Part shown: positions 19,416 through 42,903 of the stretch, one piece after another
How positions within the stretch are numbered: position 1 is the first letter of the stretch
Layout: the number at the start of each line of letters is the position of its first letter
Source: Pseudisothecium myosuroides
Lineage: Eukaryota > Streptophyta > Bryopsida > Hypnales > Lembophyllaceae
Reading direction: 5' to 3'
Assembly: GCA_951799445.1 (NCBI GenBank)
Contig: OX637295.1
Coordinates: 13,082,001 to 13,146,000 of the forward strand
Length of the DNA stretch: 64,000 nt
Notes under the pieces: generated by a model
What the model saw: only the letters and a program-made list of their open reading frames with translations
Databases searched by the model: none
What the model was told of the DNA's origin: nothing
Position numbers and translations under genes: made by a program

Positions 19416-19460
19416 AATGCCATATTTAACTACTTCTGGACTTTCAATAGTCCAGAAGTA
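19416..19460 (+). repeat. Left terminal inverted repeat with subterminal hairpin
   Basis: The 25-bp TIR 19,416-19,440 is followed at once by a perfect 12-bp hairpin: TACTTCTGGACT (19,431-19,442) pairs with AGTCCAGAAGTA (19,449-19,460) around TTCAAT. The hairpin overlaps the inner end of the TIR, as is common for transposase binding regions. Confidence 0.8.
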
Positions 19461-19492
19461 AAGAGGCGGTGAAATCCCCTGATGTTTTTCTA

Positions 19493-20862
19493 TGGATCTG
19501 GAGATCTCCTGAAATAGGAACGCTTTGCATGCATCCAATTCAGCACCCACAAGTATGTCGGGGAGTGCTTCATGTGCTTGGAAATGAAAGAAATCGTGTA
19601 GTTGTAACATAGCGGATCCGTGGTAGAGTTCACATGATTGTATTGGGAGATCTGTGGACCGGGTTTCCGTAGTTTAGGCATCCAATTTACAGCACAACTG
19701 AAGTCTCAGAACCTATCGAGAGATCCCCCGATGACCACCACTTGTTGCAAACATGGCTCCCATCCCATATTAATCCCTCAGTGAGCGCTGATCTTCACAT
19801 AATTCTATCGGGAGATCCCTTGACGGGGGTGTAGAATATGAGTCGACTTCACTGACAATCTTGGTGTCGAAGTGGGGTACAATTTGATTCCTGTGCTAAA
19901 GTGCAAGTGATATCTGAGTTCATCAAGAATGATTCACAATAAGGCACGAAAGGGGCGATTCTTTCAAAGATATATGATATCCCGAGAGTTCTAAGGAAGT
20001 ACACACAAGTGGATTTGAAATTCTAACATCAGTTGACAATTACCAAATGAGCAATTGCTCTTGGGAATAAGGAGTCCGGTTCTAGGATTCACCGGGAGAT
20101 CTCCCGACGGATTGCTAACATAGTGGAGCTAAGGTAGTCAAATATGACGAAGTGACAGGGGCTTATCACAGTAACTTACTCACAGTGACATTTGAAGAAT
20201 TGTAGACCACTGAGTCACAGGTGCTCAGACGTTCAACATACATCTGAAGATGAATAACGGCTAAGTAAACATAATATTCCATCCGAAATAATGACATTAG
20301 TTTGAGTTTGTGTAAAGAACATCAAGGTTCTTCCACTGCAAAAAATAGTAAAATTCGTACTTGGTTGAATGTCCGCTATATAATTGTGAAGATGCAAAAC
20401 CTAGAAGACTAGAATTCCAACAGTGTAACTGTGAGAGAAAAGAAATGCATTATTCAGACTCATTTGAGTGCATGTGTGACCTGAGCAATGTATTCTGTTC
20501 CGGACACAAACATAAACCACTTCCATTTCAGGAGACGAGAGGAGGAAAGACATCCCGCGCTTCTGCTATCAAGTCATTGCCCCCGTGCCGCACGCAAAGA
20601 ATAGAAATCATAAACATATTAATATATTCATACAGATTTATTTTACATATACAAGTCACAAAAAGCAGCTCTGAAAAACTAATCGAAGAACAGTCCTACT
20701 GACTCAACGGACTGTACTTCGAAACCCCCACTTGCGGCTGCGCTTACTGGATGTAGAATGCGTCAAGCGATATCACGATGGCAGTCGCGCCCCGCAGAAT
20801 GCATCGTGACATCTCACGATTGCCGCGACGACCGAAACAGTGCGTCGAGAATTCCCATGATG
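19493..20862. repeat. Palindrome cluster, left end of the island
   Basis: Degenerate copies at 19,493 (GGAGATCTCC), 19,715-19,732 (ATCGAGAGATCCCCCGAT), 19,807-19,824, 20,091-20,110 (ACCGGGAGATCTCCCGACGG), 20,769-20,780, 20,802-20,820 (ATCGTGACATCTCACGAT) and 20,844-20,862. This 1.4-kb stretch lies 3' of the integrase-type gene and is otherwise noncoding. A 113-codon plus-strand ORF (20,361-20,702) is Cys-rich but unconvincing. Confidence 0.65.
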
Positions 20863-22829
20863 GCAGTAGCGACCCCGGACTAGGCACTCAATCATGGGTC
20901 CACCACGTTTGCCCGATTCAAATTCACTAAGGCAGCCTCCCTAGTCTTCTGAGGAATCGTCCGTGATTTTTGATCCACTCTCCTGGACCAATTCGCATAC
21001 ACTGCAGCACCCGCGTCCATCCAGGTGGGGGGACTTTTTTCAACGACCCATATACCGTACCAGCAATTCCGATAAAGCAATTCCAGACTTGTTTTGGAGT
21101 TATCGGGTCGCCAGTACTGAAGCAAGAACTTCCCGTTATTCACATCTCCTTCCACTCTGCATACAGTAGACAATGCTCTTCCCTGCCAAACAGCACATGA
21201 TTCTGGGACTTCCGGTCTGACAAGTACCCAACAGCCTGGTTGTATGTCTAGCCATGGATTAAAGCTTTCCCTTGGCGCTTCATTTGCAGGGCCGCAGTAA
21301 GGCTCCGGCTCCTCTTCTTCCTCCGGAATCACGTCCATGGGATTCACCGTCGATCCTGGGCAAGGGACTCCATTACGCGCCACCCTCCAATCGTGTTGTG
21401 GCCAGAAGCCTTCCACCAACTCCGGAGGACACTCGGGTAATGGTTCCTTCAGCTCATTGAGAACACACTTCCAGTAATCCACGTATGGACCGAACGCAGT
21501 TGCAAATCCCTCGCATCTAGAAATACCGTATTGCCAGTACTGAATGTATTTCTCGAGTCCTACCAGCATGAAACCCTTGTTCAAGGTAGCTTTCCGGGCC
21601 GCTTCCCTTGCCTTCTCTTGATTTCCATGCGGTATCGGAACCTCGCTGCCCCACATGGGCTTAAACGGAACAGGCTTTGGACAGCCGTGAGGGAGCATGG
21701 GCCGACCATTGCTGTCTGTCTTCCAAATGCGTTTAGAAGGTTTCTTTGACGGCAACCAGTTCGAATCAACTGCTGACCTTTTGAAGTTCATGACGGGGAC
21801 CCCATCAGTGTCCACGTAGAACTTGAACAGGTGCATCTCCCCCAATCCAATTAATTTTTCCCCGCGATCGCATTGGTAACCCTCCACGAACGACTTGAAA
21901 TCCCCCACCTCCTGTATGAACTCCGGCATAAATGACAGTTCTTGGGACTGCATGAAGGCTTTCATGAGGTCAGCGACGACAAAAGTGTTCTTGGTCTTCA
22001 GGGCCTTGGAAAGGTGGCTGAAATATGCATCGATGTCCTCGTGAGTGTGTCCGACTAGTAGAAACCCAACCTGAATTTCCTTGAAGACACCTCGTGCAGT
22101 GAGCAAGGATAAGAACTCCATTAGATATTTGTTCTTGTTATCCTTGGCAGAGTTGTCAAGCTGAAGATATAAATTTTCAGGAAGAGGGGTACTTCCGACG
22201 CGAGCTCCAGGTTCGGTGAGGGTTAGGCTGTCCATACATCTAGACTTTCCTCTAAGCAGTGCCTCGAACAATGAGTTAGCCGGCGGATATGGAAAGAGGT
22301 CGCCTGCCTCTCGAATAGGTGGACCCTCCAGCCGGCGCAACAACCTCGCCAAAGACGAAATGGTGAAGTTGGAGTCCGCCGGCCAGCAAGATGGAGCATA
22401 ATGGGCGTAAGTACCGTCACCATGGCCATGAGCTACCATTCCAGTAACGCTCATCGGAAGCTGCCCCAAACCGGCCGTGGCCTTCGTTGTCACCCGGAGT
22501 CTGGGTAGAGCCGTCTTGGATGTATCCATCTTGTCGTGAATTATACATAAAATTCTTCGAGGATCTCGTTTGGATTCCTCATGCCAAGATGCATACAAAC
22601 GACGGCAAGAAGCTTGGTGATTCAGATGATGAGTCCGCTGCTTCACGAACTCCACGTACTCGGGGCTTCCTTTCGGAGACTTCAGAATAAACTGTTGTAG
22701 GTCGTCGCACGTAGTAAATTTTGCAAACGAACTTCCGACAGGCTTAATGGAGACGTTGTTGAAGTTCTCCCGCTTGAGTCTACTAATAGTCGACTGGCTC
22801 ACAGGTGGTAGACCGTAGTCGGCATTCAA

Positions 22830-22994
22830 CTGCACATCTAGAATTGGTACGCTTAAGCATCGGTACAAGCGAAGGGGAAGGAATACAAATGACAAGCAAT
22901 GCACCAGAACAGTGATCGTGATATCTCACGATCATTGATCTTGACGGGAGATCTCACGATCAATAAAGCAGTGACAGGAGATAAGGGGCACTAC
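22830..22994 (-). repeat. Intron carrying two palindrome copies
   Basis: This 165-bp intron of the integrase-type gene holds GATCGTGATATCTCACGATC (22,914-22,933) and GACGGGAGATCTCACGATC (22,943-22,961). Its donor is GAG-GTAGTG and its acceptor GTGCAG-TTG on the minus strand. Confidence 0.65.
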
Positions 22995-23890
22995 CTCGTT
23001 GGCATCTGCTCGGACTCGTTTCCAATTTCTTCCGGGAGGAAGGAATTTTAGAGTGTCCGTTCGCCCGTTCCCGATGTCGCGCATTTGATGGGGCATTTGA
23101 TCAGCATTCTTGTCAATAATGGCTTTCATAGTCCCAGCGACCTAAACAGTCCGAGCCCGCGGACGCTTAACCCCTTTGTTTCCGTGCGTCCCTGATACGA
23201 CGCCGTCGTTGTACATCTCGATGTAACTGTGGTAAGTGGACTTCGGGATGCCGTGAATTATGTGCCACGCCTTGCCACAAACATCAACTCCCTCTAGCGT
23301 GACGTATTTCCGCTTTCGCTCCCCGTACCTTTCGTGTAGTTGTCCTCCCACTCCAATCCCATATTCACGGCGCTCGTCAAACGACTTCAAGTAGTACTTC
23401 TGCCTTACTAATAGCGTGAACTCCTGGTTATAATGCTGACAACACAGACGTCTGCAGCACTTCTCCGAGCTGACTTTCCGAATCTCCTCGTCTGCCGTTT
23501 TGCGGGAGTACTGCGATTCCTTCAGTTCCAGATTGGGTTTGCGAACTATAAACCGGTATGGTGCTTTCATTCTACCTCCGAGGTAAGCGAGAGGGTCGTC
23601 CATATCGGGAATGGCAGCAAAATGATCCACTGTCTCCTTCAACGAACGACCGTTGGGAAACCAACACTCCGAAATTGGCCACCTGTTGTGAGACATTATA
23701 GCTTCGGTGTCACCCACAAAAACATCGAGGACTGTCACACCTAGGAAACCTTCACCAAGTGTCTCCTCTTGGAAATGATCCTCCGGACTCCAACAAATGA
23801 TACGACCCGAGGAAACGAGGAGTCCGTCGGCGTCCTTCCGATGCACATCAAGTCCAAACCAGGCTCCTTGACGAATATACGGACATGGAT

Positions 23891-23910
23891 CCATCGGGGG
23901 ATCCCCCGAC
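23891..23910 (-). repeat. Palindrome copy inside integrase-type coding sequence
   Basis: ATCGGGGGATCCCCCGAC lies in exon 1 and is read on the minus strand as S-G-D-P-P (context VRASGDPPMDP). It is the same frame and the same peptide as the four coding copies in the ParB/FCP1 gene. Confidence 0.7.
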
Positions 23911-24275
23911 GCTCTAACAACGTCGGCGGCTCTCCACAACACTACATTCTCTTGAACATCCTCTAATGTATTCATACCCCTCTGACAAGGAAAGCATTTC
24001 GAATCCTGGAATTTTAATTTGACAGAATGAGGTCGCACCAGAATGTAAATCCAAGGCTCAACAGGTATAGGCACACCCAGCCACTGGCCCTGGGGACGAA
24101 CCTCTTTAACGATTCCTGATCCAACTTCACCGAATACAGGCACAAACAGCTTAACCCAATCACCATTCACAAACGCTTCACATCCACCGGTGGAATCCTG
24201 TGATTCACCCTCTACATGCGTTCCGTCCACATACGGAACTATCGCGTCAGCAGCAGACTCACAGAATGAATCCAT

Positions 24276-24435
24276 TGTCAGAGTGAGCTCTATCGAATCC
24301 CGTGGACGAGATTAAAACGATCCGTAAAACCTGTATATCATACATTCAAGGAGTTAGGCATGTCTACAGAAGAGCGCTGCATTCATGGCATTGTAACCTC
24401 ACGACATGAAGGACAGAAGCATCAACGTCTGTACA
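24276..24435. other. Upstream region of the integrase-type gene
   Basis: Presumed promoter and 5' UTR on the minus strand. No clear TATA box stands out. Confidence 0.3.
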
Positions 24436-25116
24436 GTCGTGGGAACTCACGATCACACGGCAACGCAACATGAACAAGTGAATCTAGTTACTGTCAACAA
24501 GAAGTTCGAAAGCCCAGACGCGATAGTGCAATCTCAAGAAGGCCGTCCCAGAACCACTGGGAAGAAGCCAAGGCATCCAGGAAAACGTCGCAGAAGTTTA
24601 GAAGACATTAACCAAAGAACGTTCAGTACATCGTGGGATCCCACGACACTCTTGGCGCTTAATCACTTAAACCAGAGATCGCGGTATTCCAAGATCCTCC
24701 TAAGGGATCACATAGACCGCTACAGAAATACAAATGAAGTAGTGGGTCAAACTGAATCACTCTGATGAGTCCCCGACATATTATCAATCAATCGTGGGAT
24801 CCCACGTGTTCGGTATCCTGTAAATTCCGGAAGAGTGTTTGTGAACCCCCCCGAGTAGGAGAACCTGGTGCCAACCGAGAACGTGATCGTGAGATCCCAC
24901 GATGCTTATACAAGATCAACGAGGAGTATGACGGTCATCGAAAAGTAAGGCACCTAGACGTACACCAGGAAGGCCACAGCCAAGGTTCAATCGATCGTGG
25001 GATCCCACGACGAAATTATAGAACATCCCTCGACTACCAGACCGTGATATCTCTATACTCGAAGACTGAGAGGTCTCGCCCACGCTCAATAAGCGGAGAT
25101 CGTGGGATCCCACGAT
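24436..25116. repeat. Palindrome array upstream of the integrase-type gene
   Basis: Copies centred at 24,444, 24,638, 24,686 (degenerate), 24,799, 24,894, 25,002 and 25,107; a very degraded one may sit near 24,531. The last four are 95-108 bp apart. Perfect or near-perfect copies include ATCGTGGGATCCCACGAC at 24,630 and GATCGTGGGATCCCACGATG at 25,098. Spacer sequences share no obvious homology. Overlapping plus-strand ORFs here (24,406-24,765 and 24,765-25,163) exist because the palindrome has no stop codon in any frame. Confidence 0.8.
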
Positions 25117-26449
25117 GCTTACGTATGTTGGATATATACACGTATTCTACTGTCGTAGACTAACGTATCTACAGAAGATCGTGAAATTAGGTTTCCTGTC
25201 ACTGGTTTCATGACATTCGACACTCTATAACTATTCTCAGTTACTGTACAAAAATTCTCTACTTTTCAAGTGGATTTTGTTGTAATTCAGACTCCTGAAC
25301 CTCCATGGATGCAATAAGAAACGTTCTTAGAAGTAGTTGAATTTGATGGCTGGGTTTTCCTCATGTAAGTTCGCCTAATTCCTAACGCAACTTAATTTCA
25401 CTACTTTGTGAAGACGTTCTGACCGGTTGTCATCCACGTACAAGGTTCTCATATCAACTTGCCCTCAGGGCAGTGCCGTCCCGCAATTCAAAAGGAACCT
25501 CGATGTCACCACAGCATGGTGATCCCTTAAGCACGTGAGTTTTTCGCAAATTGAGACCAATGCGCGAAGAAAATTATCACAGACTCCATTTCACTTTCAA
25601 TCTACGACATCCTCAGTTTGTGACAGAGTGCAGTGGCGTCAATTCGACTACAAAATCCTCGACATTGGGAATCGCATAACACTTGCAAGGGATGCATTCT
25701 TACCTTGCAGCAACCGGCTCGGTCAGAACTTCGTGCGCCTCCACGCCCACTCTATCGCCAACGTCGGCAGACACCCACTCACCACTCCGCAGCCTGCTCC
25801 GCCTCTTCACGTGTGCAGACAAAAAGAGCAAGCTCCAGGTTCTTTTCGGGTTATGAACCAGGTGGCTGGTTCGAATTCTTCAGCTCTGAATTCCCGCCGC
25901 GAATTTTGAAATCACCAAGCGATCCTTGATTTCGAATGTTGGATGCGTTCTTGAATGCCGTGCCACAATCAACAACGGCTGGGGGGTACTTGCGGTCCTT
26001 CACTTTGGAAGTTCATTGCATTCTCGAATTCCGCGCATCTCCGACTACAAGGAAGGAGGGCGTGGGGCTCTTGACTTTCTGACTGGAACTTCGCAAATCC
26101 AGGCTTCACTGAAATTTCGATTCTTCACTGACATTTTGAAATTCGCCGCATTCAAGGATGGTATCGTTGCACCGTTTTCTAGGAGTCAATGATGCTTTGA
26201 CCAAAGCGGATCAAACTCTGAAGACTTTCACTTGACAGAATGTCACACGCTTCCCCGATCAATACTCGGAATTCTTCCCCTACACGACCTGATTATACGT
26301 ATCCTACAGAAACGAACTGTACCAAATCTTGTGAACCCAAAAGCTTGAGTACCTGAAACATGTGGAACACCTCACTTACAAAAAGAATCAACAAAATGTT
26401 TGAACTCCCGAATGTTCATATTTGTTATTTTCTATTCCAATGAATGCAA
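25117..26449. other. Mixed-composition spacer, no palindromes
   Basis: Plus-strand ORFs of 88-124 codons (25,535-26,192) lack family features and coding bias, so I treat them as chance. The palindrome family is absent from here to 31,836. Confidence 0.35.
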
Positions 26450-26672
26450 TCTTAGGGTCTAGGGTCCACAGTCATAGGGTCTACAGTCCACGGTCATAGG
26501 GTTTAGGGTACATGTTGTAGTGTAGTGTTCACGGTTTCAAGGTCATGGTTCTTGGTTTCAGGGTTCAGGGTTTCAGGATTTAATAGGGTTTAGGGTATAC
26601 AGTGGCAGCGCTTTACATTAACGTTTTCAGGGTCTGCAGTTCATGGTTTACGGCTTTTAGGGTTTAGGGTAT
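26450..26672 (+). repeat. Degenerate telomere-like array
   Basis: Repeated words TAGGGTTTAGGGT, TAGGGTCTAGGGT, GGTTTCAGGGTTCAGGGTTT and TTTTAGGGTTTAGGGT, variants of the plant telomere unit TTTAGGG, interspersed with GGTCATGG/CCACGGTCA words. Too degenerate to be a recent telomere addition. It may be an interstitial telomeric repeat or a telo-box-rich region. Confidence 0.6.
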
Positions 26673-26932
26673 TATGAAAAATGAAAATGACGCTGATTAT
26701 TTGTTTCCAATTTTTTCCTCAATTAAGTTTACGTCATCTCAGACTGAGAACATATAAACTTAAAATTCAATCTAACTCAATATTGCTAATTAAAAATGTC
26801 AGTTAACAGATTGATTTCATATATAATTCTTGTTATGTAGTACAACATCCTATGGTTTAATATGGGACTTTACGGATTAAACAATGATTGACACAATTTT
26901 TATTTCATCTACGAATTTTTAAATAAAGCACC

Positions 26933-27085
26933 AGGGGCTTTTTTGCGTTTCCCTCTCTCATTTTTTCCTGCGTAAACGGCAATCCATGACTTCTCGTTGT
27001 GTCACAATCCGTTGACACAATGAAAAGTCATAAGATTGTTGTTTACATAGGGAAAAGTGAGAGAGGGAAACGCAAAAAAGCCCCT
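26933..27085. mobile_element. Short MITE/hairpin, 153 bp
   Basis: Terminal inverted repeats AGGGGCTTTTTTGCGTTTCC and its complement GGAAACGCAAAAAAGCCCCT, continuing through CTCTCTCA / TGAGAGAG, give a 28-bp nearly perfect stem. The inner part is also self-complementary (CAATCC.TGACTT / AAGTCATAAGATTG). No clear target duplication. Confidence 0.7.
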
Positions 27086-27389
27086 TGTGAAGGACTTTGG
27101 ATGTGCAATCATGATGGAACAAAGAACAAACTAAACCATTTATTTATTTTGTATTTTAAATCTTAGTCTGAATGATTTAATGAGTTAAATGCTTTCAAAT
27201 TTGTTAATGCACTTTGACGGGTGATGAATGCTTAAACCTGGAATCATGTCATTCATGAGAATATTGTAGGTCATGCAATCTTCATCTGGATTTTTGAAAT
27301 GATCGAACGTGGTATACATCTACATCATTATTTGACAACGATGTACGTAATATTGTTATTTGTTATTGTTATTTGAACAATCTCCACCG

Positions 27390-28770
27390 ATGTGAAACAA
27401 AAAATCGGGAATGAAATGCGTGATGGCTTGAAACGGCTTAAATAATATTTAAAAAGTCATGAAATTTCATACATGCATGCATAAAATTTGATTTAGAAAA
27501 ATGTAATTGCTCCAACCTTAGATTCCACCACTATTTTCTAGTCTTGCCCGTTGAAAAATTCTAATTCACATGAAAATAAAAAAATTGGAAATGAAACGGG
27601 CCCTGCCATTGAACTATGGCTTCATTTTAAAAATGTCATGGAATTTCACACGTGCATGCATAAAATTCTACTGTGGAAGTTGGAATTGCTCTCAGGATTT
27701 AGATTCCACCACTATATTCACTTCTTGCCCATTGCAAAATTCTAATTCACGTGAAGAAAAAAAAATTGGGAATGAAACAGTCAGGCCCTGCCATAGAATG
27801 GCTTCATTTTAAAAACGTCATGGATGGTTCATACATGCATGCATAAAATTCTATCGTGGAAGTTGGAATTGCTCTTATGATTTAGATTCCACCACTATAA
27901 TTATTCACTTCTTGCCCATTGCAAAATTCTAATTCACGTGAAGAAAAAAAAATCGGGAATGAAACAGTGAGGCCCTGCCATGGAATGGCTTCATTTTCAA
28001 AACGTCATGGATGGTTCATACATGCATGCATAAAATTCTATCGTGGAAGTTGGAATTGCTCTTATGATTTAGATTCCACCACTATAATTATTCACTTCTT
28101 GCCCATTGCAAAATTCTAATTCACGTGAAGAAAAAAAAATCGGGAATGAAACAGTGAGGCCCTGCCATAGAATGGCTTCATTTTCAAAACGTCATGGATG
28201 GTTCATACATGCATGCATAAAATTCTATTGTGGAAGTTGGAATTGCTCTTATGATTTAGATTCCACCACTATAATTATTCATTTCTTGCCCATTGCAAAA
28301 TTCTAATTCACGTGAAGAAAAAAAAATCGGGAATGAAACAGTCAGGCCCTGCCATGGAATGACTTCATTTTCAAAACATCATGGATGGTTCATACATGCA
28401 TGCATAAAATTCTATTGTGGAAGTTGGAATTGCTCTTATGATTTAGATTCCACCACTATAATTATTCACTTCTTGCCCATTGCAAAATTCTAATTCACGT
28501 GAAGTAAAAAAAATTGGGAATGCAACGGGCCCTCCCATGGAATGGTTTCGTTTTAAAAATGTCATGGATGGTTCATACATGCATGCATAAAATTCTATCG
28601 TGGAAGTTGGAATTGCTCTCAGGATTTAGATTCCACCACTATAATTATTCACTTCTTGCCCATTGCAAAATTCTAATTCACGTGAAGTAAAAAAAATTGG
28701 GAATGAAACGGGCCCTCCCATGGAATGGTTTCGTTTTAAAAATGTCTGGCAATTTCATGCATAAGACAGT
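27390..28770 (+). repeat. 187-bp tandem repeat, ~7 copies
   Basis: The word AAAATTCTAATTCACGTGAAG recurs (split here as AAAATTCTAATTCAC plus GTGAAG) at about 27,551, 27,733, 27,920, 28,107, 28,294, 28,481 and 28,668. The period settles at exactly 187 bp in the middle copies, while the first copy (27,390) is degenerate and the last incomplete. Each unit contains CATACATGCATGCATAAAATTC and AGATTCCACCACTATAATTA-like blocks. The middle units are almost identical, showing recent homogenisation. Near-identical 66-codon ORFs (27,919, 28,106, 28,293) are by-products of the repeat. Confidence 0.93.
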
Positions 28771-28774
28771 GCAT

Positions 28775-29962: not shown

Positions 29963-30241
29963 TAAAATAGTATAACTAGGTTGCCTTATTTCAACAAAGT
30001 TACTTTACAAGCCATCAAAGTAAATAAACGTTTCTACAATTATTTTTATTTGTAGACATGGAGTTTCGAGAGTTCCAATAGCAACAATACTTAAATAACA
30101 AATAGTGCATTCTTATAGAGAAACAAAAAAAATGTATGTGGTAATTATCGAATGTCACGAAATTAGTGAGGTGCAAGTGTGCGACCTAATTTCAGCATTT
30201 TGTGTAATGAGTGATTATTTAGCTTAAGACTTCTAGTCAAG

Positions 30242-30274
30242 CCCTCCTCATGATATCAGTAATCATGAGGAGGG
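30242..30274. repeat. 13-bp perfect hairpin before the ParB/FCP1 gene
   Basis: CCCTCCTCATGAT and ATCATGAGGAGGG flank a 7-base loop. It lies about 140 bp before the first proposed coding exon, so it may be a promoter element, but this is inference. Confidence 0.55.
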
Positions 30275-31578
30275 TGGGCAGTCATGACCTCCGTCGTCTT
30301 GCACCTGACAGCGCCACGTCAGCATTTCCCCCCGACGGTTTCCTCTCCTCCTGGTTTCCTTTCCTCCTCACGATGTCTGCTTGCTGTGTTTTTCTCCCGA
30401 CGTCGTGTGCTTCTCCGTTCTCCGTTTTCCTCAGTTGTGCGCTTCTCCGCTTTCTTTGTGCATTCATTCTCAGTTGCTGCAGTCCGTGAGTTTGGGTCAG
30501 TGTCTGAAGGTTTGCATTTCGAGTGAGTTTGGTTGTTTGGAGGTTCTCTGCTTGGTTCAACATTTGTGCGCGGAGCTGAGTGCGTCGGGGGACATCGAAG
30601 GAGCGTGTTCAAATTTCGCTGGCGGAGTCTGTGTGGAGCTGCGCGGAGAACGACACTGCTATCTCGTGGTGGAGTGTGCGGAGCATTTCCTGGCGGAGGC
30701 GGTGTGCAAGCTTCCGAATCTAGTGCGCAAGAAGGACAGGGTGTTGGATTTCACTCGGCTCATCCAACATGTTAGTTTGTTGTAGTCAAGCCTACAAAGC
30801 AGCATTTTGATTTTGTAGTTCTGACTCCATCTGTGAGGTTGATTTACTTTTTTGTTGTAGATTTCTGATTGCATAGAGCTGCGCGTTTGCTCTGGATTTC
30901 AGCTTCTAGGCTTGGAAAGAATTGATGATCCCATTCAAGCTTGTAGATTGCATCATTCTAGTACATGGATACAATGAATGTTTAGCACTCGCCTTCCTTG
31001 CAGCTGTAGGCTCTCCTCACGCATCGTAGTTCTCGGTTCATATGAACTGTAGACCCTAAAATGCTAAGTAACCTTGATGTAGTTCACGAACTAGAGTTCA
31101 ATGTGTATGGACTGCTGTGAGTGTTTGAATTGAAGCAAAGTGAAGTAAGGAATGGGAATGTTGCTCCCAAAGAGGAATGGAGCGAAGAGTTCATTGTATA
31201 TTATTTAATTAGACAGTACTCGTTTGTGAATGATATTAGGAACATGGTTTGTGCAGGGATTTTATGACTATAATCAGACACGCTTGTTTTCTGTGCAATA
31301 GGCTACTTAGTCCGTCACTTTAGAATGATTTAAGTTTACCTTCTCTTCAATTAAATTCACTTGGCTAGTCATGAAGAAACAAGTTAGGAGTTTGTGATTC
31401 TCAGTGAATGATTGAAGCTACAATTTCTTCTGCATTTGAATTTCATGCAACAGTCTTTCGAAGAGCGGAAGGGCATTTCTGTAGTAGCTGAAAACAAGGC
31501 CGGACCCGTGCAAGCGGAAGCTACGATGGCAGCAGCTCCATCCCAGCGTACAGCAGACCTCCCAGTTTGGAAAGACCC

Positions 31579-32607
31579 GTAAGTTACTTTGAACTACATT
31601 CTCATTACTTTCCGTTTCTTGCTTGCAATGTCTACGTTATAAACAATGCCAATAATTAGGGTATGGCTGTTTGCAATTGCATTGGTACGCACTTTGCTGA
31701 AAACGAGGGTAGTAGAGCCTCTGTCATAGTCGCTGTTATAAACATGGCCGAGAAATACGATAGTATCTATGCCAAGAAGAACACACGGTAATGAGTACGT
31801 GACTCTGTTACCGTGGATAGTGACCCTAAAACCGTGCATCGTGGGATCCCACGACAGGGCAGTCCCTGTGTACATTCGAGCATCGTAGGATCCCTGACTT
31901 GTAACCCTAGCCGCCCACCACTGCGCGGCCACACGAGTTTTAGGGTTTGTGGCCCATCGTGGGATCCCCCAATGATAAGATGTGGAGACGCAATCTAAAC
32001 CCAGACCACATATTAGGCACAGAACAGGCAGCGGATTAGTAACCAATCGTGGGATCCCTCGATGGAGGATAGTAAAGACCGCGCCTGACCCAGACTTAAC
32101 AATTAGAAGACCACCTACATAGAGCATTCATGTACTAAACCGTCGTGGGAAATCACGACGAGAAAGTCTAGCGTGGGTAGAGAAATTGAGATGCAGGCGC
32201 GTTAACAAATAGCGCTGATTATGTGAACAATCAATCGTGGGATCCCACGACAGACAGTAGTTTCACAGATCATCACCGATCACCTTCTAAGATATTCCAA
32301 TATCCATTCTATGTTATTTGGTGTCGTCGTCATATGCTGGGACGCCTTCAGTTCGTGAGTTGAGATGCAGTAACCTCCTGCCCACTACTGTCCGTGAATG
32401 TAACCGATCGTGATATCCCATGACAACGGTAATTTGTGAAACCAGGTCATCAAAATGATCACGAAACCATTCCTTCTCTTTCATAACCTCCGTCGTGGGA
32501 TCCCACGACTAATGATAAAAATTAAAGTTATACCCGGAATAATATCGCACCACCATCTGCTCTATCTGACAATGTGGAAACTAACATCTCTTTCTACCGT
32601 GCTGCAG
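31579..32607 (+). repeat. Intron 2 with eight palindrome copies
   Basis: Copies centred at 31,846, 31,890, 31,964, 32,054, 32,150, 32,242, 32,415 and 32,500; spacing 44, 74, 90, 96, 92, 173 and 85 bp. Three are perfect cores (TCGTGGGATCCCACGA). The intron runs from CC-GTAAGTT to CTGCAG-TG, phase 2. Confidence 0.8.
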
Positions 32608-33931
32608 TGAAATGCAAGTCGACGAAGGTCCAGAAGAACTGACACCAAGGAAGCTTGGTACCTTCATCGACTGCTACATTACGTCTTTGGAGTACACAAG
32701 TCCACATCCACCACAAGCCTTTTTCCGATGCAACGAGCAGATTACGCATTGGGGAATCGCCTGGAAAGCAGAGAGTGACGGCTCCGCCACTATTCTTCCC
32801 ACGCTGGTGAATGGGACAATGGGACACCCAACTGCCGGATTGAAGGTACTAGAAATGAAGGGGCTTGACGACGACACAGCGCTCCTAGTTGTACAGGAGA
32901 AGGTTCCCCTTTCCGGGGAGATCATAACGTTTGGGCTGATCCTTGACTACGCGAAGTTCAGCCTCACTCTGTGCGAGTCTGTGACTGCAAGGTCACATCT
33001 GATGTGCAAAGACACGTCTAAGCCTCGGTGGAAGCCTAAGGAGCTGAAGAACTAGTGGGACATAATCCTGGAAGACTTACGAGATACGAACGCTCCCCCC
33101 CAAGCCGTGACAGCGGTTGCTCCCACGCCGTCCCCCAAAAAGAAGACCAGGAAGAGGAAGTCTGCAGTTGGTGCTCCCGGGGACGAAGTTGAAGCCGTAG
33201 CTGGGCCATCCGGAAAGAAGAAAAAACCGGATACCCCGCTTCCGCTTCACAGGGCTGTGGCTCTAGGGGAGGCAGACGTGAAGAAGATGACACCGGAAGA
33301 GATGAATGCGATGAGGACCCTGTACGAGAACTCTTTCGGTGGCCTGTACAAATGGGGCAGGAAACCAGTTTGTGACAGCAAAGGAGAGCTCATCCGCATG
33401 CACTACGACTATCTGCACCAGGCACCTATAGCACTGCTCGTGTACAGGGGAATTCAGGCAGAGCGGCTTGATTCGCTGACGAGGAAGGCACGAATCACAC
33501 CTGATTATGACTCGGAGAACAGAGTCATAACAGTGCTTCCCCTTAAAGCGGAACCCTACGGCCCGGCAAAGGTAGTGTCGCACTATAAGAAGCAAGCGCC
33601 GAAGAAGGAGATCTTCGAAAACCCCAAGACGCACTACTACATTATAGGGGGCCAACACACTGTCCAGGCATTCAAGGACCTGATTAGGCTTGGTGTGATT
33701 CCCGAGAAGGACAAGAAGCTTGCCTCCACCTTCAATATTTTACCTGTGTGGACGGACAAAGATCACCACGGAGACCTAGTGCACTTCTCGCGGGCGCTGA
33801 ACCAAGATGTCGTTGGCAAACAGAAGGAGCAGAACTTTACGAAGCAGCTGCTGAACGCAAGAATCAAGTGGCGGAGTATGGGAAGTCCACAGCCAGCAAT
33901 ATTGGGCAGATCGCACTCAGTAGAGTACAAT

Positions 33932-34390
33932 GTAAGAATGCTGCTAGAGTTGTCATATTTTTTTTTGGGGGTCATCAGAGTGCGCTCTACCTGACCATCG
34001 TGGGATCTCCCGATGGTCCTGCACTACATCTCAGACCTTCATTACGTTAGAACCTCGTCATCGTGGGATCCCACGACTATGTCTTGGCTTTGCGATACGG
34101 GGTAGTTCTACGTTAGAGTGCGGCAATCGTGATATCCCACGACTTTAACATATGAAATACCAGATAGCACTAGTTTAGTTTTTTGTGCTCGCGGTTCAGT
34201 GCGTGGTGTTTTCAAATTGTGCATATAGAAGATAGTTGCTCATCGTGATATCTCACGACTGCCTGTTGCCTAAACGACTTCCTCGTGGTAACTGACTGAT
34301 CGTGGGATCGCACAACTGTTTATTGGACTTCTTGTGTTCACGTGGTCTGTCTACGGATCGCGTACTGACTGTTACTCCTTTGTTGGGCAG
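33932..34390 (+). repeat. Intron 3 with five palindrome copies
   Basis: Copies centred at 34,005 (ATCGTGGGATCTCCCGAT), 34,068 (perfect core), 34,134, 34,250 and 34,307. Donor AAT-GTAAGA, acceptor GGGCAG-GCG, phase 0. Nearly every 60-115 bp of this intron carries a copy. Confidence 0.8.
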
Positions 34391-36107
34391 GCGTTTCAGC
34401 CATCGGTGGCATCAATATTTGCGGGAGCAAAGGCGAAAGACATCGCCGAACTGAGAATCCCTCTACTCTTCCTGGAGAACGACACTGATGTTCAGAGATG
34501 GATCAAGATAGAGGAGAGATTCATGGCAGGTCTCCTTCCTGACGCGGCGGGGCTGGTCGATGTATCCGGGAGTACGGATCGCAAACCGTTGGCGGCAAAC
34601 GACTTCAAGCCCCTTTACGGACTTAGACCGGAGGACATCAATTTCCTTGCAGATCAAGTCGAAGCCCAAGTTATTAGCATGAAGACCTCCGTCGCAAAGT
34701 CGAAATCACAGAGAGGTGGAAAACGCATCATCTCTCTTGCAGACGCCGGCGCCAAAATTCGGTTGGTCAGGGCGATGAAGAACGAACTCTTGTCACACTA
34801 CAAGGGTCATCTGCTGCCGGCGAGGAGGGTGGAGTACGAGCCTTACCCGGACTCTTTGTGGGTCGAGTTTGCGACGGAAAGGAACATTGAGCACGAGGAT
34901 GTGGAGATGTGGGTGAACAAGGCAATGGAAACCCCTGCTGGAAAGAAGTGGTTGCAGGATCGGACGAAAAATCTCAACAGGACGTTCGACCCAGCTGACC
35001 TTCCGCAGTCGGTGATCCAAATGTGGGAGTCGTATTTCAAGCTGACGGCGGAGGAGGAATCGGTGCAGGCAAATGCACGTGGTTTTTTAGAGCACTATCT
35101 CTGTAAAACCATGGACGAAAGCAGCTGGGACATCAACGCCACCTTGGCGGCAGGGGACGTCATAGCGTGGAGGGGAAAGAAGAAGCAGCACCTGTACATC
35201 TGGTACATGTTCGAGTCAACGTCCTGCGGGTGTCGCGCCAAAATTCTTGAAGAGCGGAAGTTGAAGAGACTCTTTGACGCTCTAGAATACTATGATCCGC
35301 AGGACTAGACAATCGTAGCCCGCTCTGCCGCCGTTCTCCTCACAGATGCCGAAAGGTTCCACATGATTGTGGCTCACATAGAGAAACGAAGGATGGAAGT
35401 CAAAGCTAGGTTGTGGGACTGGCACGTTGTGAACTACATGGCAGGGCCCGAAGACTTCTTCCCTCAAGCTCCGGCCGGAGACGGATACAATGTCTTTGTT
35501 GTCTTCATTTTTGGGCACAACGAAGAGCACGAGCGGCGGACTTGCTTCAAGAGCTTCTTCCCGGGATTGGACCGCCTCACTCAGGTGTACAAGGCGGAAG
35601 ATATGCCGGACGACTACCCTTACTGGCGTCGGCAGCAGATGCCGTATTTGAAGATCAGCAGTGCGTTGATTCTATTCGAAGGACTAGCTTGCACCGACTA
35701 TGTCTTTGTGAATGTCAACGAGGGTCCAGAGTTCACATATCTGGGCTTGGTATGCACTACAACGATTGTCTTTTCTTTTGTTCTTCTGATAATTTCAATT
35801 TCGATTTGGGGGATTTGAATGTCACTAATTTCCGGTTGTTGTATTTCAGTATTCGGAAGGTGGTAAAGTGCTGGAAGTTGTCGACTCAGCGGAAGCGAAG
35901 ACGTTAAGTGAGGTCTTCGCCAAGCAGATTTGGGACGACAAACATGCGCAGGCGGCACCCCTTCCTCTTCCGGAGGCCGAACACGAGGACGAGGAAGTTG
36001 AGAGTGATGATGAAGATGCTGTACTCGAAGACATCACCCAACACAGACCGAGTTTAGGAACAAGGTCGGTTGAGCACCCTAAGGTTAGTGTGCATTATTT
36101 GCTGAAC

Positions 36108-36127
36108 CATCGTGATATCTCCGGACG
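36108..36127 (+). repeat. Single palindrome copy in intron 5
   Basis: CATCGTGATATCTCCGGACG in the 125-bp intron 36,084-36,208; the left half matches the family and the right half is degraded. Confidence 0.5.
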
Positions 36128-36811
36128 TTGGGCAGCGTATATCTCTCGCATGCTAATCTGGGAGGGCAAACTGAGCTCAATTGTGGTGGGATATTGCCTT
36201 TCTCGCAGGTGAAATCTCCGACTCCCTCCCCCCGGCGAGAGCAGCTGACTGATCCGCCAAGTGCAGCAGAGGATGCAGACAAAGTTCCCGAGGTTCATTC
36301 AGCGAAGGCGGAGCTGGCAGATCTGACAAAGGAGCATGAGAGTAGTCCAGAGCCGTTACCAGCCGAACAAATTGTAATTCTAATATCGAGCGGGTCGTCA
36401 GGCGAAGTGAATTTAGGGATCCAATTAACGGACCCAAGGATATCCAAGAGGAAGCCGCTTAAGACGCCGGTCAAGGAACCCGACACCGCAAAGGATACTG
36501 GGAGCACAAAGGCGGCCAAGCGAGCCCGGAAGACAGCAGGCGAGAATCGAAAGGGGGGGACCTCCAAGTGGACTCCAAGTAAGTCATTGGTGCAGCGCAA
36601 ACAGTCGACAGCGAAGCCGACTGGGAGTCCCAATCCCGAAGCATCAGTCGTGGCAGAAGCGCTTCTGAATTGTGCCTTGGGACCATTACCATCGAGGTCT
36701 AACAAGTCGACTCAGCCGCAAAAGGAGGATGCGCAGGCATCTCGTGCTTCAGGAGCTGACAGGCAGCTTCCGGACCTCGACTTATTAACCCTGGAAGACA
36801 CTCACCGACCA

Positions 36812-37250
36812 GCATCGGGGGATCCCACGATGACGAACAAGTCACTGGTCAAGAGCGGGGAGGATGCGGCCGACCTCAGCGAGGGGAGAAAAGAGTCGAA
36901 GGGGGATGATGACCACCTCGGATCGGGGGATCCCACGACGAGCCTTGCATTACCTGTCGAGACTGAGTTAGCTGTCTCTCGACGTGGTACAGGGAAGGAT
37001 GACCAAGGCCGGAAACCGGGACCTGAAGGATCGGGGGATCCCACGATCGCTGAAGAGTCAGTGGTCTCAATTCATCATGGAGATCTGGCAGAGAGCGAGG
37101 GGGGTGAACACCAGGAAGGAGTGGTTGCATTGTCTTCGTCGGGGGATCCCATGACTGTGCCAGAGCGATTGCTCCCGCCGATGGGCATCACGGTTGCTGT
37201 ACTTAACGACACCCTTGTTGACTTGGTCCCCCTGAGTCCCAAACCTGTTC
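36812..37250 (+). repeat. In-frame 108-bp (36-codon) repeats, each starting with the palindrome
   Basis: TCGGGGGATCCCA begins at 36,815, 36,923, 37,031 and 37,139, exactly 108 bp apart each time. It is always read S-G-D-P-T (last copy S-G-D-P-M). The 31 residues after each are poorly conserved (shared flavour: S-L/V-V then G-D-x-A-x-S-E-G) and acidic or Gly-rich. Only the palindromic core is conserved at DNA level. Confidence 0.85.
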
Positions 37251-38889
37251 TTGGAAGGAAGAGTAAACTTTTGATAGGGCGGGCGAGGATTGTCGACATT
37301 GCTTCACTGGCCTCCAGTGTTCCACTAGAGGTTGCAGGAGAGGTGGTTCCTGATGACGGTGAGTGCAATTCTGACGAAGTGCTAGAGGCCATACCTTACG
37401 AGGCCGAAGAAATAATGAAGTTCTGTCTTGTTGATCGTATGAGAGCATTTGGTCATTTACCGAGTCTAAACCACTATGGGAAGAAGCGTCTCGATACCAA
37501 CAAGGATATTCATTTGGAATTCGTAAGGCGAGCGAACCGTTTCCTTTACAAGCCCGTCTTTAAATGGATATTTCAGGATGGTCCGCATGCAGTGTATGAT
37601 GGAGGGGATCCACCTGATGCAGACGAAGAGTGGGAGGCAGTGGAAGGCGGCGTTAGAGGGAGGAGGGTGGTGGTGCCTTCAAGCGACGACGAGCTTGAGC
37701 CAGGATCTTTGAGTGGTGACCAGGGGGAAAGAGGACCAGTGAGCGCCGACGAGAGAGGAAAGGGGCAAATGCTCGTCAAGAGGAGGGGGGAAGGATCAGT
37801 GAGCGGTGGCGAGAGGGAAAGAGGACGATTGGGCGACGAAAGGAGGGCGGAAGGGTCGCCAGCTTGTAGCGTCCGAGCTCCCGCAGGTAACATGCCTACA
37901 TTATTGTCAATGTACATACGAGATAACGAATCTTGAATTGGCCGGTCACTGACTCTGTGCTTCTCTTGTATTCTGCAGTTTTTCGAGTGCCTGCTGAACC
38001 GGTGGCGAAGTCGTCGAATCAGGTAGAAAGGCGGCGGTATTATGTGGTCTTTGACCTTAATGGAGTTCTTGTTCACAGGTCATTCAATGAGTTGAACAGA
38101 CGCATCGTAACACTTCGACCGAATGTTGGTCATTTACTTGACTTTGTGCACAGACATGCAAACATTGCATTCTGGAGCAGTATGACACCGGCAAATGTGA
38201 CGAAGGTATTGAATCAAATGCTGCCGGGGACGTCTGTTAAGGTGAAGGACGTGCCTGTTCTCACGCAGGAAGACTGCACAAAGTCATCCTACAGAGACCC
38301 CGAACACCCGGTGTCGGGTAGAGAGGAGCGCGCTTAGGGAACACACGGGGTGTCTAGCTGCAAGTTGTTGAATGATATGGGTCGGTCTCTTGAAAACTCG
38401 AATCTTCACTTGAATCTTCACTTGATCTTCCGTTGGCCTATCCTGTAGTGGCTCTATAGGGCCAAGGGTAAGGGTGTATGATAAGAAACAAGTCCTCGGA
38501 CGGGTAAAACGGGACGGCCAAACCACGAGCTGACCGTCCGAAAGATTGGCTCCTGAATTTCAAACCCACGGTGACCAGGAAGCGCCTTTCACCAGTGGGA
38601 ACAACATAAAAGATCGACCATGTGGGTGATCAATCCCACTTCGTCGCCATAAACATAAAACGGGGCTTTATTGGATACCCACAAGCCCGCAACAGGTTTT
38701 ACAAAGCAGAAAGGAAATATGCAACTAGCCTCCAAAACCGGCTGGGAATAACATAAAAGACAACGAGCCACAAGCCACAACACATTGAAGATCCCTTTAA
38801 GGATCTTCAAGTCTTCAAAATCTTGAGTCTTGAGTCTTCAAACCTTCCTTCATTCGAATTTGAAGAAATCCGAACTAGTTTCAAAAGAA

Positions 38890-39735
38890 ACTAGTTCCCC
38901 ACACAAGCTGTCATTTTCAAACTAGTGCCACATATGATCTACAAGCTTAAATTCTAAGTGTCTTAGCTTTTTGGAAAGCTAATAACATAATACAACTATC
39001 CTATAAATTTCAACTCAAACTAAGCTACTGTCCAAAAGTTATTAGCGAGCAAAGTAGAGGTCCTCTTCTCCCTTAGCAACCAACTACTGCTTCTTCAAAA
39101 CTCAATAACTTTTGTTTAACAACTCCAAATCACAAGTGTGATAGCAATTTGGAAAGCCCTCCCTACCATCTACAACTTGTGAAAATTTCACTACAATCCA
39201 AACTACTGTCCAAAAGTTATGAGGTGTAGGGTCTCGGCTTTCTCAATTAAGAAGGCAAGAAACACCTCAAACTTTATTACTACTTAACTTTTGCATAGTA
39301 AGCTCAAATCACACAAATGAACTCATTCTAGAAAGGTGAGCTCATATTCTAACTACTCCCAAAGTTTCAACTTCAACAAAACAACTGACCCAAAGTTGTG
39401 GCCGTCGAAGTCTCGGCCTTCCTCCTCCAAGCTCAATCTTTGCTCCAAGCTTCAGCAGATGATAACTTCTCACTCCAAACTTCAAATCACAAGTTTAATA
39501 GCTTCTTAGAAAGCTATAAACAAGATCTACAAACCCTCTAAGTTTCAAAATGAACAAGCAAACGACGCAAAAGTTATGGCTTGATGAAGCCTCTGCCCTC
39601 TCAATGGAAGGCCTTGGGTCTTCACAACTTCAACCCTTAATAACTTTTTGCTCACAACTTCAATTGCAACTTGCAAATACTCTATGGAAAGCTCTCATCA
39701 TCAAGAATAACATACTCAAATTTTATTACTCAAAA
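38890..39735 (+). repeat. Degenerate 178-bp tandem repeat, ~4-5 units
   Basis: The block CTGTCCAAAAGTTAT and its variants lie at 39,028, 39,206, 39,385 and 39,563, a steady 178-bp step. Each unit also holds a CAAATCACAAGT-like word, an AGAAAGCTA-like word and AAGTTTCAAC. Sequence identity between units is modest, so the array is old. Confidence 0.7.
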
Positions 39736-40150
39736 ATCCATGCTCCATGAGCTACATACATAACAAATTTCGGTCCTTTCTACCTCTCCTCCACACACCC
39801 AAAACTCTCCCTTCCTACCAAACTCAAAGATTCCTCTCTCTCTTTTTCTCCCCTCTCTAAGGTGGTGGTGGGAGCACATCAGCCCATACCCCTTATCTCC
39901 CTACCTAAGACCCCACCAAAGATCCCATCTACTTCCCTATTCACACTCATTTTTCTCTTCTAACTCCTTGGCTATTTTATTTAGTTCAAAACTATTCACA
40001 CACATCTATCAAAGCCAATATAAACTAGAAATTAAAGGAAACAAATGCAAGGCAAGCAATCGTAGGATAGCCACGTGCCACTAGAGTGTTTAAAACTATC
40101 TGGAATCACTCTTCGATCGCCAAGTCGTGACCTTGGTCGGCCGAAAAGCG

Positions 40151-40207
40151 GTGGTCAAAGGCGTTCCGCTGGTCCGGAATCGCGGGTTCGAACCCCGATG
40201 GGACCGT
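40151..40207 (+). repeat. tRNA-like Pol III promoter (SINE-type A and B boxes)
   Basis: A-box-like TGGTCAAAGGCG at 40,152-40,163 and a perfect B box GGTTCGAACCC at 40,185-40,195. TTCCG...CGGAA could form an anticodon-like stem, and CGGG-TTCGAAC-CCCG a T-arm. No acceptor stem is visible, so this is not a functional tRNA but a tRNA-derived repeat head, about 230 bp before the end of the insert and followed by an AT-rich tail. Confidence 0.6.
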
Positions 40208-40755
40208 CGAGCGGCGGGGCGCCACGGCTTGGCACGCTGGTGAAGAGGCAGGAAACAAAGGCCGACTGCCCGCTACCTACCCCCTGAGCTGTGCTTCGCA
40301 CTGTGACAAGAATTAAAACGTGGTTCTCACCACGACCAATCCTTTTAGTTCTAATCACTCCTTTATTAAAAACAAACAAATATATATATAAATATATATA
40401 TTTACATGATGGAAGGATTTCCATCAGGACACCGGACAGGCCCTACTTCCTCAAGGATCTAAATCATTTCGCCACTAAGCTGGGTTTGAGGTCAACCAAG
40501 AATGTTCTCCTCGTTGATGACGATCCACTTAAGAACCTCCTGAATGATTGTCATAGCGCCATTTTCCCCCACAAATTTGATGGGGACTGGAGGGACCAGT
40601 ACCTTGTGGGGGTGCTCAGTCCTTGGCTCGGAGGTCTGTTTAAGTCACAGGATGCTGTGCTGGCGTATATCAAGAAGCATCCGCTCCACAATGGTCTGCC
40701 ACCGGTGGTCCGGTTGACCAGACCGGGGTCTGACATTTTGAGGGCAGTAGTTTAG

Positions 40756-41936
40756 TTTTGGTTTCTCTTCCTCGACGGACTTCATCGTGATATCTCACGA
40801 TCTCCTTTTGGCGTGCATATTATTGCTTGTAGCTTAAAACTCTTGAACATACTGTAAATATTGTAAATGCATTTTCGAAATACTGGACATTCTTTGTTTG
40901 TAGGAGGCATTGATTCTGCCTCGTAGTAAATGTGAAAATAAATTTTTTTCCTAAATGCCTTTGATTAAGATAATTATGAGTTCAAAGGGTTCACCTCGAC
41001 CTTGACTATTAATCCGCGTGCATGCACATCTAGAGATCTAATGGTATAATTACCGTGGAAGTGGATTCTATCGGTAGATCGGACTGTTCTGGGCATTTAT
41101 CCTTGTCTTTTAAATCTAATGTGAATGCATTTCCGGTGCATGACCGTCACTTAGAATTGTTAGAATTCTTACTCTTCGTTCGCAGCTTTAATCTAAATTT
41201 GGTTCTGAAATTGTTTATCATATTACTCGGAAGAGTGGAATTATTTGAACACCTCATTAGATTTTAACACTGGGCGTCATCATCTTGCGCGGCAAGCTTC
41301 ATCAGGAGATCGCACGATACGACGTGACGTGTGAACATTGAAATGTCGTTTCTGTCCTTGTATTGTCTCGTGATATTGTTTTTGTACTTGTGGATGACAG
41401 TGAAGTTGTAGTTGTGCTTCTACTGTTTGTTTGGGAGTTCTCCTGCAATTCCGGTTTGCTGAAGTACGGATTTGAAATTGATAATTTTGTCCTGTGTCTT
41501 CGGCTTGATTGGAAGATCTCACGATCATTTTCCCTTGCATTGAATTATTAGTCTTAGGCGGATTATGTAATGTCCATTTTTGTTGCTTCAGTCAAATGCA
41601 ATTGAATTTCTGCTGCGTAACTTCCTTTGCTCGAGTATTTTCGGTCTTCTAGTATGTCACCCTAAACCTTTTTCTGTATTTGACGCGAATTCTAAATCTG
41701 CATCCCTTGTTAGTGCTGTATTCTGGGCTGCAGTGACACCGTAGATGTATTGCTAATTTCCTTGCACTATGCAGCAAATATTAAGACATTCAGTCGCTGT
41801 TCTTCAAATAACTACCCATGCGTATTTTCAATTAACGGTTCGGTTGTATTGCATATTGGTCGGGGGATCCCACGATCAATTGACGTCGTTTCTGTATGTA
41901 CATGTCTGCGTACTGAGGCTTACTTGGTCTTTGCAG
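40756..41936. other. Noncoding spacer of the island with scattered palindromes
   Basis: Palindrome copies at 40,782-40,802 (CATCGTGATATCTCACGATC), 41,300-41,318, 41,511-41,527 and 41,859-41,877 (TCGGGGGATCCCACGATC). This may contain upstream exons of the next gene that I cannot define; the short ORFs lack family features. Confidence 0.45.
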
Positions 41937-42419
41937 AAGGCGATGCTCTTAGTACTAACAGGGGATCTCTGCGTGAAGGGCGGTGTGGCGGATCTCCCAC
42001 AGAATATCGAAATTCGGCCCGGCTTCCGTGGTCTTCTCCGAAATTTCGTTCAAGAAACTCACTGTGGTTTGTGGTCCGCAATGCAACCTTCAACACTGGC
42101 CGCTCTTCTTCGACGTATTCTACCGCCGGAAATTCTGTCAAGGTTTCTATTTTTTGCCGGGTCTGACAATCCACGGAAGAACCAGGTGTATCCCCATCGT
42201 CATGCAATACTGGAGACTGTCTTGAACATTCCTCGGACGCGCAGGGTACTCTTGAATAACAATGTTGTAATGCTTGTCCTAGATCCTCTTGATTGGAAAC
42301 GTCCGCACTTGCTTCGACCGGCGTTGCATGTGAGGGATGATGTAGATCCTGTAGAGTTAGATCGTCCGCACATTATAGCACCGCCTTTTGATTGGTCTTG
42401 GGCCCCAAAAAACATGTAG
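41937..42419 (+). CDS. Degenerate second FCP1/NIF-like exon
   Basis: An exon opening after TTTGCAG (41,930-41,936) and ending at TAG (42,417-42,419), about 160 codons. The order LLVLTGDLCVKG, IEIRPGFRGLLRNF, GLWSAMQPSTLAALLRRILPPEI parallels the FCP1-like domain of the neighbouring gene (VVFDLNGVLVHR, IVTLRPNVGHLLDF, AFWSSMTPANVTKVLNQMLP). The nucleophile Asp of HAD motif I is missing, apparently through a two-residue gap, and I see no DDxP motif near the C-terminus, so it should not be an active phosphatase. Upstream exons and start are unknown. It is probably a diverged tandem duplicate. Confidence 0.45.
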   Translation, partial: KAMLLVLTGDLCVKGGVADLPQNIEIRPGFRGLLRNFVQETHCGLWSAMQPSTLAALLRRILPPEILSRFLFFAGSDNPRKNQVYPHRHAILETVLNIPRTRRVLLNNNVVMLVLDPLDWKRPHLLRPALHVRDDVDPVELDRPHIIAPPFDWSWAPKNM

Positions 42420-42820
42420 TTGGAAGTGGACTAGTTGGGTTATTTATCACCTGTTTGTTGCATCCAAATGATTATATAAGTGGCGAATCCACCTTAGTTT
42501 TCTATCTGACTGTGATTACACCTTACCAAATGTCTGTAATTGCATTATGTTGCTTCTGCATTCTTTTGTGTTATGTGATACTTTGGGAAGTATGTTTTGA
42601 GCTCTCCCGATCTGTGATGTCGCATATTAATGCAACCCCGGATACAAATGTACCGCTTACAGCAAATGTCGGAGTTGACATCATCTCAAATTCATCGATT
42701 TGTTCGAACACTCTATCCCGAAGGAGTATATTTCCTTGCATCGGGAAATTTCCAGACCACTTAGCATCCCAAAGCGATTTAAATCTCCTTTGAATGGCAT
42801 TACGGACTCATTGTACATAC

Positions 42821-42842
42821 CATCGGGAAGATCTCCCGATGG
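42821..42842. repeat. Last palindrome copy before the right end
   Basis: CATCGGGAAGATCTCCCGATGG, 37 bp inside the right TIR. It mirrors the GGGAGATCTCCC-type copies near the left end, so end-proximal copies share the AGATCT centre. Confidence 0.65.
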
Positions 42843-42878
42843 ACAGGACCTTCACAAAGTCCAGAATTCCCCGTAAAT

Positions 42879-42903
42879 TCCAGAAGTAGTTAAATATGGC
42901 ATT
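42879..42903 (-). repeat. Right terminal inverted repeat of the island
   Basis: Exact reverse complement of 19,416-19,440 over 25 of 25 bases, ending ..TTAAATATGGCATT. A second TCCAGAA word lies just inside (42,860-42,866), paralleling the subterminal TTCTGGACT of the left end. Confidence 0.85.

Follow-up and report, generated by a model that had tools for sequence, protein, structure and literature searches.

A giant DNA transposon family, very probably Sola-type-like, in the moss Pseudisothecium myosuroides

Introduction

A 23.5-kb island in the genome of the moss Pseudisothecium myosuroides, edged by perfect inverted repeats and carrying long open reading frames (ORFs), raises the question of whether so long a segment is a mobile element and, if so, of what kind. 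It lies within a stretch of 64,000 nucleotides (assembly GCA_951799445.1, contig OX637295.1, here C9:13082001-13146000), hereafter the window, to which all coordinates refer unless a contig is named; the genome searched comprises 388 Mb in 222 contigs. A sequence-only reading of the window had proposed an undescribed giant transposon with an integrase-type gene, a ParB-like/FCP1-like fusion gene, and an extra FCP1-like exon. The island is a unit bounded by terminal inverted repeats (TIRs), inserted with 4-bp target duplications and present in many similar copies. Taken as a whole, it is very probably a decayed member of a family of giant (~21.5 kb) Sola-type-like cut-and-paste transposons that was active recently.

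Boundaries, copies and empty sites

Comparison of inverted pairs across the window recovers the 25/25 inverted repeat exactly where it had been claimed, at 19416-19440 and 42879-42903. Because a target duplication, TGAA, takes up the 25th pair (19413-19416 on the left, 42903-42906 on the right), the true TIR is 24 bp and the transposon proper spans 19417-42902 (23,486 bp). The TIR, ATGCCATATTTAACTACTTCTGGA, lies at 19417-19440 on the plus strand and 42879-42902 on the minus strand, with both positions matching the ends of complete copies elsewhere and the right one also the right-end probe. Among exact inverted pairs of at least 18 bp in the window, the TIR pair is outranked by the arms of a large hairpin at 7.2-8.3 kb and by two short-range pairs within the island, one of 28 bp (26.9-27.1 kb) and one of 26 bp (28.8-29.9 kb). 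At the left end a subterminal hairpin is possible, with 19432-19442 pairing with 19449-19459 (DNA fold z -4.9), whereas many shuffles of the right end fold at least as well as the real sequence (z -1.3); inside the TIR the two ends are therefore not symmetric.

The compositional edges are less sharp than the repeats. The G+C content rises from 0.30 at 18-19 kb to 0.38-0.55 inside the island and falls to 0.30 at 43-44 kb, as the sequence-only reading had noted, but it dips to 0.31-0.39 at 26-30 kb, and further G+C-rich stretches occur outside at 9-11 kb and 53-60 kb; composition alone is therefore insufficient to define the island. A palindrome family, described below, is confined to the island as claimed, but begins 0.3 kb and finishes 1.0 kb inward of the repeats rather than exactly at them.

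Probes of 1 kb over each edge were searched against the genome, with the best 40 of 268 left-end and the best 40 of 236 right-end candidates scored, such that all copy counts are lower bounds. The window itself aside, the scored places are 97-99% (left) and 97-98% (right) identical to the probes. Matches break where the element does: 38 of the 40 on the left start at query positions 116-118, the other two being the window and a match that begins at 98, and 37 of the 40 on the right stop at 903-904, the others being the window and matches ending at 907 and 908. For 23 of these left ends the right-end matches include a same-strand partner at a distance of 20.7-28.3 kb (median 21.5 kb), and the other 17 have none among the matches listed. 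One of the 17, at C5:45820, has a right end that was read directly from the sequence, bringing the complete copies to 24, window included; for another, at C1:18145508, the interval from 15.5 to 25.4 kb away showed no right end.

Both TIRs are perfect in 20 of the 24 complete copies, and the four bases before the initial ATGCC are identical to those after the terminal GGCAT in 23, the single exception reading AATA/AATT. The match extends to five bases in one copy and to six or more in none, and left-right four-base matches across different copies, examined as a control, occur in only 11 of 552 combinations. The duplications are A+T-rich (G+C 0.23, against 0.33 in the flanks), with no motif seen by eye in the 24 copies. 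For a view of empty sites, 400 bases from each flank were fused around a single TGAA; with the best 40 of 91 candidates scored, this query gave at least 10 places, the window's own halves aside, that cross the junction unbroken at 77-86% identity, four of them within 80 kb on one contig. All three of these that were read carry one TGAA and lack the insert. The sequence-only reading had expected the two edges to be absent together at orthologous loci; they are indeed missing together, here at loci that are paralogous, and complete copies that define the target duplication, which it had proposed to look for, exist elsewhere in the genome. Its proposal of a TIR-bounded mobile unit is thus upheld. 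With dozens of near-identical copies, the family may have been active recently.

Seven copies compared and the decay of the window copy

The window copy and six other full-length ones are collinear, including the low-G+C middle and its tandem array of 187-bp repeats (27542-28746, 6.5 units in the window), which is matched in all six. Identity is 98.0-99.5% among the six and 96.7-97.2% between them and the window. The possibility that the island is a composite of nested pieces finds no support, given this collinearity across the low-G+C middle, with only an insertion of ~2.1 kb at 38312-40431 being private to the window copy; it is absent in all six, and its junction was read against one of them. 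Divergence between the copies is mostly 0.3-2%, but is far greater at 30000-31000, where the six others differ from one another by 10% over 30.5-31.0 kb.

The window copy has three private TAG stops, at 23142 (minus strand), 33053, and 35306, at which the six others read CAG or, in one case, CAA. It also carries 413 private differences, 199 of which are C-to-T or G-to-A changes, with 77 falling on 1756 CpG positions and 122 on 7565 other C/G positions, a pattern that would be expected of methylated, silenced DNA. These stops, together with a phosphatase-like domain split by the insertion, make it likely that the window copy is unable to move by its own proteins and relies on those of other copies, although read-through or re-initiation is conceivable. 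Such dependence would concern this single copy and not the family, as the lesions are missing in the six copies compared, and it is compatible with any of the classifications weighed below.

The DUF7869 gene

The minus-strand gene near the left end comprises a predicted first exon at 22995-24275, with a putative start codon and the private TAG at 23142-23144 (CAG in the six other copies), a putative 165-bp GT-AG intron at 22830-22994 that was placed from the sequence with the guidance of relatives and has one palindrome inside it, and a second exon at 20892-22829. The product of ~1,072 residues matches Pfam PF25273 (DUF7869; E 1.5e-43, 149.1 bits against a curated cut-off of 26), which Pfam lists as a domain without assigned function and which no paper found in our literature search names. 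The AF2 model of the protein shows an RNase H-like, integrase-like core encoded by the second exon, followed by a C-terminal barrel, with conserved acidic residues of DDE/D type, the candidate third catalytic acid being E/D296 or D297. Structural matches to the model include Mos1, Metnase, and retroviral integrases at 9-13% identity, and the closest named relatives among the 120 proteins listed come from Physcomitrium patens, Ceratodon purpureus, and Riccia sorocarpa. The integrase-type, DDE-like character attributed to this gene from its sequence is thus borne out by the predicted fold, the structural matches, and the conserved acids, and the DUF7869 protein is probably the transposase of the element.

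Between the window and the six copies, dN/dS is 0.24 over the ORF at 20892-22925, which includes 96 bases of the putative intron, and 0.23 over that at 23142-24311; among the six copies alone the values are 0.39 and 0.76. The first of these ORFs is stop-free in two of the six other copies and has one or two stops in four. Purifying selection on the transposase before the present burst is the best supported reading of these ratios.

The second gene and its NIF/FCP1-like domain

The plus strand of the right half carries ORFs that may form one second gene or several genes. The first, at 32612-33994 with a putative start and a private TAG at 33053-33055, has six relatives at 44-63% identity; a further long ORF, at 34292-35818 with a private TAG at 35306-35308, matched no Pfam domain. 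They are followed by a low-complexity ORF at 36116-37936 and by a NIF/FCP1-like phosphatase domain, the first part of which lies at 37927-38311 and the second, with the motif LLVDDDPLKN, at 40432-40755. The domain matches PF03031 at E 9.3e-14 in an unsplit copy, and in the window its first half does so at E 2.5e-8, the second half alone falling below the Pfam cut-off. Because the 2.1-kb private insertion splits the phosphatase gene here, the extra FCP1-like exon proposed at 40.3-40.8 kb is really the second half of one domain; the FCP1-like label itself is justified by the Pfam match. A last ORF, at 41757-42419, appears NIF-like by eye and matched no Pfam domain.

The usual catalytic motif of NIF/FCP1-like HAD phosphatases is DxD. 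Whilst the domain shares the NIF match with these enzymes and has seven relatives at 44-58% identity, it differs in its DLNGVLV motif, which reads DxN: DLNG stands in all seven rows covering the site, query included, with one of the eight rows not covering it.

Compared between the window and the six copies, the early ORFs have low dN/dS (0.14 for the ORF at 32585, 0.31 at 33056, 0.27 at 34292, and 0.19 at 35309), with values of 0.04, 0.28, 0.34, and 0.38, respectively, among the six alone. The ORF at 35829 gives 0.99, and that at 36116 gives 0.80, or 1.02 among the six, suggesting little or no constraint; the two NIF parts give 0.60 and 1.98, and the ORF at 41757 gives 2.30, with few changes in these three. 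Antisense controls lie at 0.62, 0.86, and 0.41, and other ORFs at 1.00 and 0.55. On this pattern, constraint is best supported for the opening exons of the second gene and for the transposase before the present burst, and the ratios at the NIF end do not demonstrate it there.

The ParB-like identity suggested for the first part of the gene finds no support, as searches of Pfam, PHROGs, NCBIfam, and the sequences of the PDB gave no match to ParB. Its GGQHTV motif bears what we take to be a likeness to ParB or DGQHR proteins; the best family match of the first ORF is a weak one to DUF6551 (E 0.011, in two of seven members), and its structure prediction, at pLDDT 42, is too low for fold comparison.

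The palindrome array

With up to three mismatches allowed, the 16-bp palindrome TCGTGGGATCCCACGA occurs at 28 sites, all within 19716-41875 and none in the rest of the 64-kb window, against 0.13 expected from whole-window shuffles that ignore the higher G+C content of the island. Thirteen lie upstream of the two putative gene starts, namely a cluster of six at 24437-25115, within 1 kb of the transposase start, and one of seven at 31839-32508, before the second gene (binomial 1.4e-7, in a test chosen after the clusters were seen). The others fall in putative introns, near the ends, and in one ORF; they include five sites at 33998-34315, a stretch that is probably intronic in the second gene, and four spaced exactly 108 bp apart at 36815-37154, where they are read as SGDPT repeats of the low-complexity ORF. 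As their flanks are mutually unlike by eye, the palindromes do not appear to belong to some longer repeated unit, and they are modestly less variable than these flanks. Genome-wide there are 905 exact copies, against none of a reversed control; the 50 that were listed all lie on contig C1, many of them in element-like clusters and some singly. Most likely, a dimeric DNA-binding protein recognises the palindromes.

Classification and proposed mechanism

Which class of transposon does this anatomy resemble? Sola elements, as PMC10741241 describes them, encode a DDD transposase, carry TIRs of 11-1124 bp, and duplicate 4 bp of their target; they are mostly 2-9 kb with some above 15 kb, and are found in Physcomitrella. 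The present family has 4-bp duplications in 23 of 24 complete copies with a single TGAA at the three empty sites read, a 24-bp TIR, a predicted DDD/E-type transposase, and a moss host, and so appears in its anatomy to work like a giant Sola-type transposon. The statement that its cargo is unlike known plant transposon classes was therefore too strong, as far as this description of Sola goes. The differences, likewise compared by description only, are the second conserved gene region with its NIF domain, the 28 palindromes, and the size: with a median of 21.5 kb the family is far larger than curated Sola1 elements, for which PMC10294476 gives a mean of 5,445 bp.

We lean slightly towards an ordinary member of the Sola superfamily, enlarged by an extra gene, with DUF7869 being the Sola transposase under its Pfam name. 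The layout agrees with the account in PMC10741241 in its predicted DDD/E-type core, duplication length, and TIRs; the comparison is with a description of Sola rather than with its proteins, and the third acid may be D297 or residue 296. A possible but somewhat doubtful alternative is that giant plant transposons moved by a DUF7869 transposase form a superfamily of their own, a new one that is only convergent with Sola. The size, second gene, and palindromes are unusual, DUF7869 is without a Pfam function and unnamed in the literature searched, and the element remains undescribed within that literature, in which no listed title or abstract beginning names it; against this, both the duplication length and the catalytic layout coincide with the Sola description.

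Other classes fit less well. Mutator-like elements and Pack-MULEs are, likewise, plant TIR elements able to carry other genes (PMC6431247 and PMC10741241), but Mutator-like duplications are 7-12 bp in the latter account in contrast to 4 bp here, and the second gene is partly constrained. The likeness to Mos1, Metnase, and retroviral integrases is one of structure at 9-13% identity, and the 4-bp duplication differs from the TA of Tc1/mariner given in the same account. In the present copies TTAA is the target in only one of the 24, which sets them apart from piggyBac and Kolobok. These two groups target TTAA. An endogenous virus or virus-derived, Polinton-like element is highly improbable, despite the length, the two gene blocks, and the TIR ends. 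Polintons/Mavericks have a 6-bp target duplication, a protein-primed polymerase, and capsid genes, whereas here a 6-bp match occurs in none of 24 copies and a 4-bp match in 23. No polymerase, capsid, or ATPase domain, nor any other viral domain, was found in 10 window ORFs and seven ORFs of another copy, a scan outside which some exons lie; no viral fold matched at E 0.001, and the transposase and the first ORF of the second gene, searched with two peptide patterns each, have no relatives in viral contigs.

On the Sola-type-like reading, the DUF7869 protein, through its RNase H-like DDE/D core, would recognise the 24-bp ends and excise the element, and reinsertion with a 4-bp stagger would complete cut-and-paste movement, as the fold, residues, and duplications suggest. 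The second gene, or set of genes, conserved along with the first and ending in the NIF/FCP1-like domain with its altered motif, would have an accessory role in propagation, as selection on its opening exons suggests, and the palindromes would bind a dimeric protein, encoded by the element or by the host, that controls expression or aids the assembly of so long an element; all three, movement, accessory role, and binding sites, are what we infer. A bolder version, which we consider rather unlikely, holds that DUF7869 is a superfamily of its own, that a dimeric protein of the second gene reads the palindromes so as to coordinate the two promoters and, in a parS-like manner, to compact or pair the 20-kb element for transposition, and that the DxN domain is a non-canonical phosphatase or a module binding the transcription machinery.

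These results suggest a transposase function for DUF7869 and provide exact ends, target duplications, and empty sites as a test ground for it. Giant cut-and-paste elements are uncommon, and with dozens of near-identical copies the activity of this one may be recent; its second gene and palindrome array raise the question of what else, besides a transposase, an element of 20 kb requires.

Neighbouring features

Outside the island, a large near-perfect inverted repeat of foldback type lies at 7196-8281, ~1.1 kb in total with exact arms of up to 124 bp. A G+C-rich ORF of 306 residues at 9599-10516 (plus strand) matches RWP-RK weakly (E 2e-4), short of the Pfam cut-off. At 54690-56842 (minus strand), two exon-like ORFs match FKBP peptidyl-prolyl isomerases (FKBP_C, E 9e-13 and 4e-20) and are probably part of a host gene.

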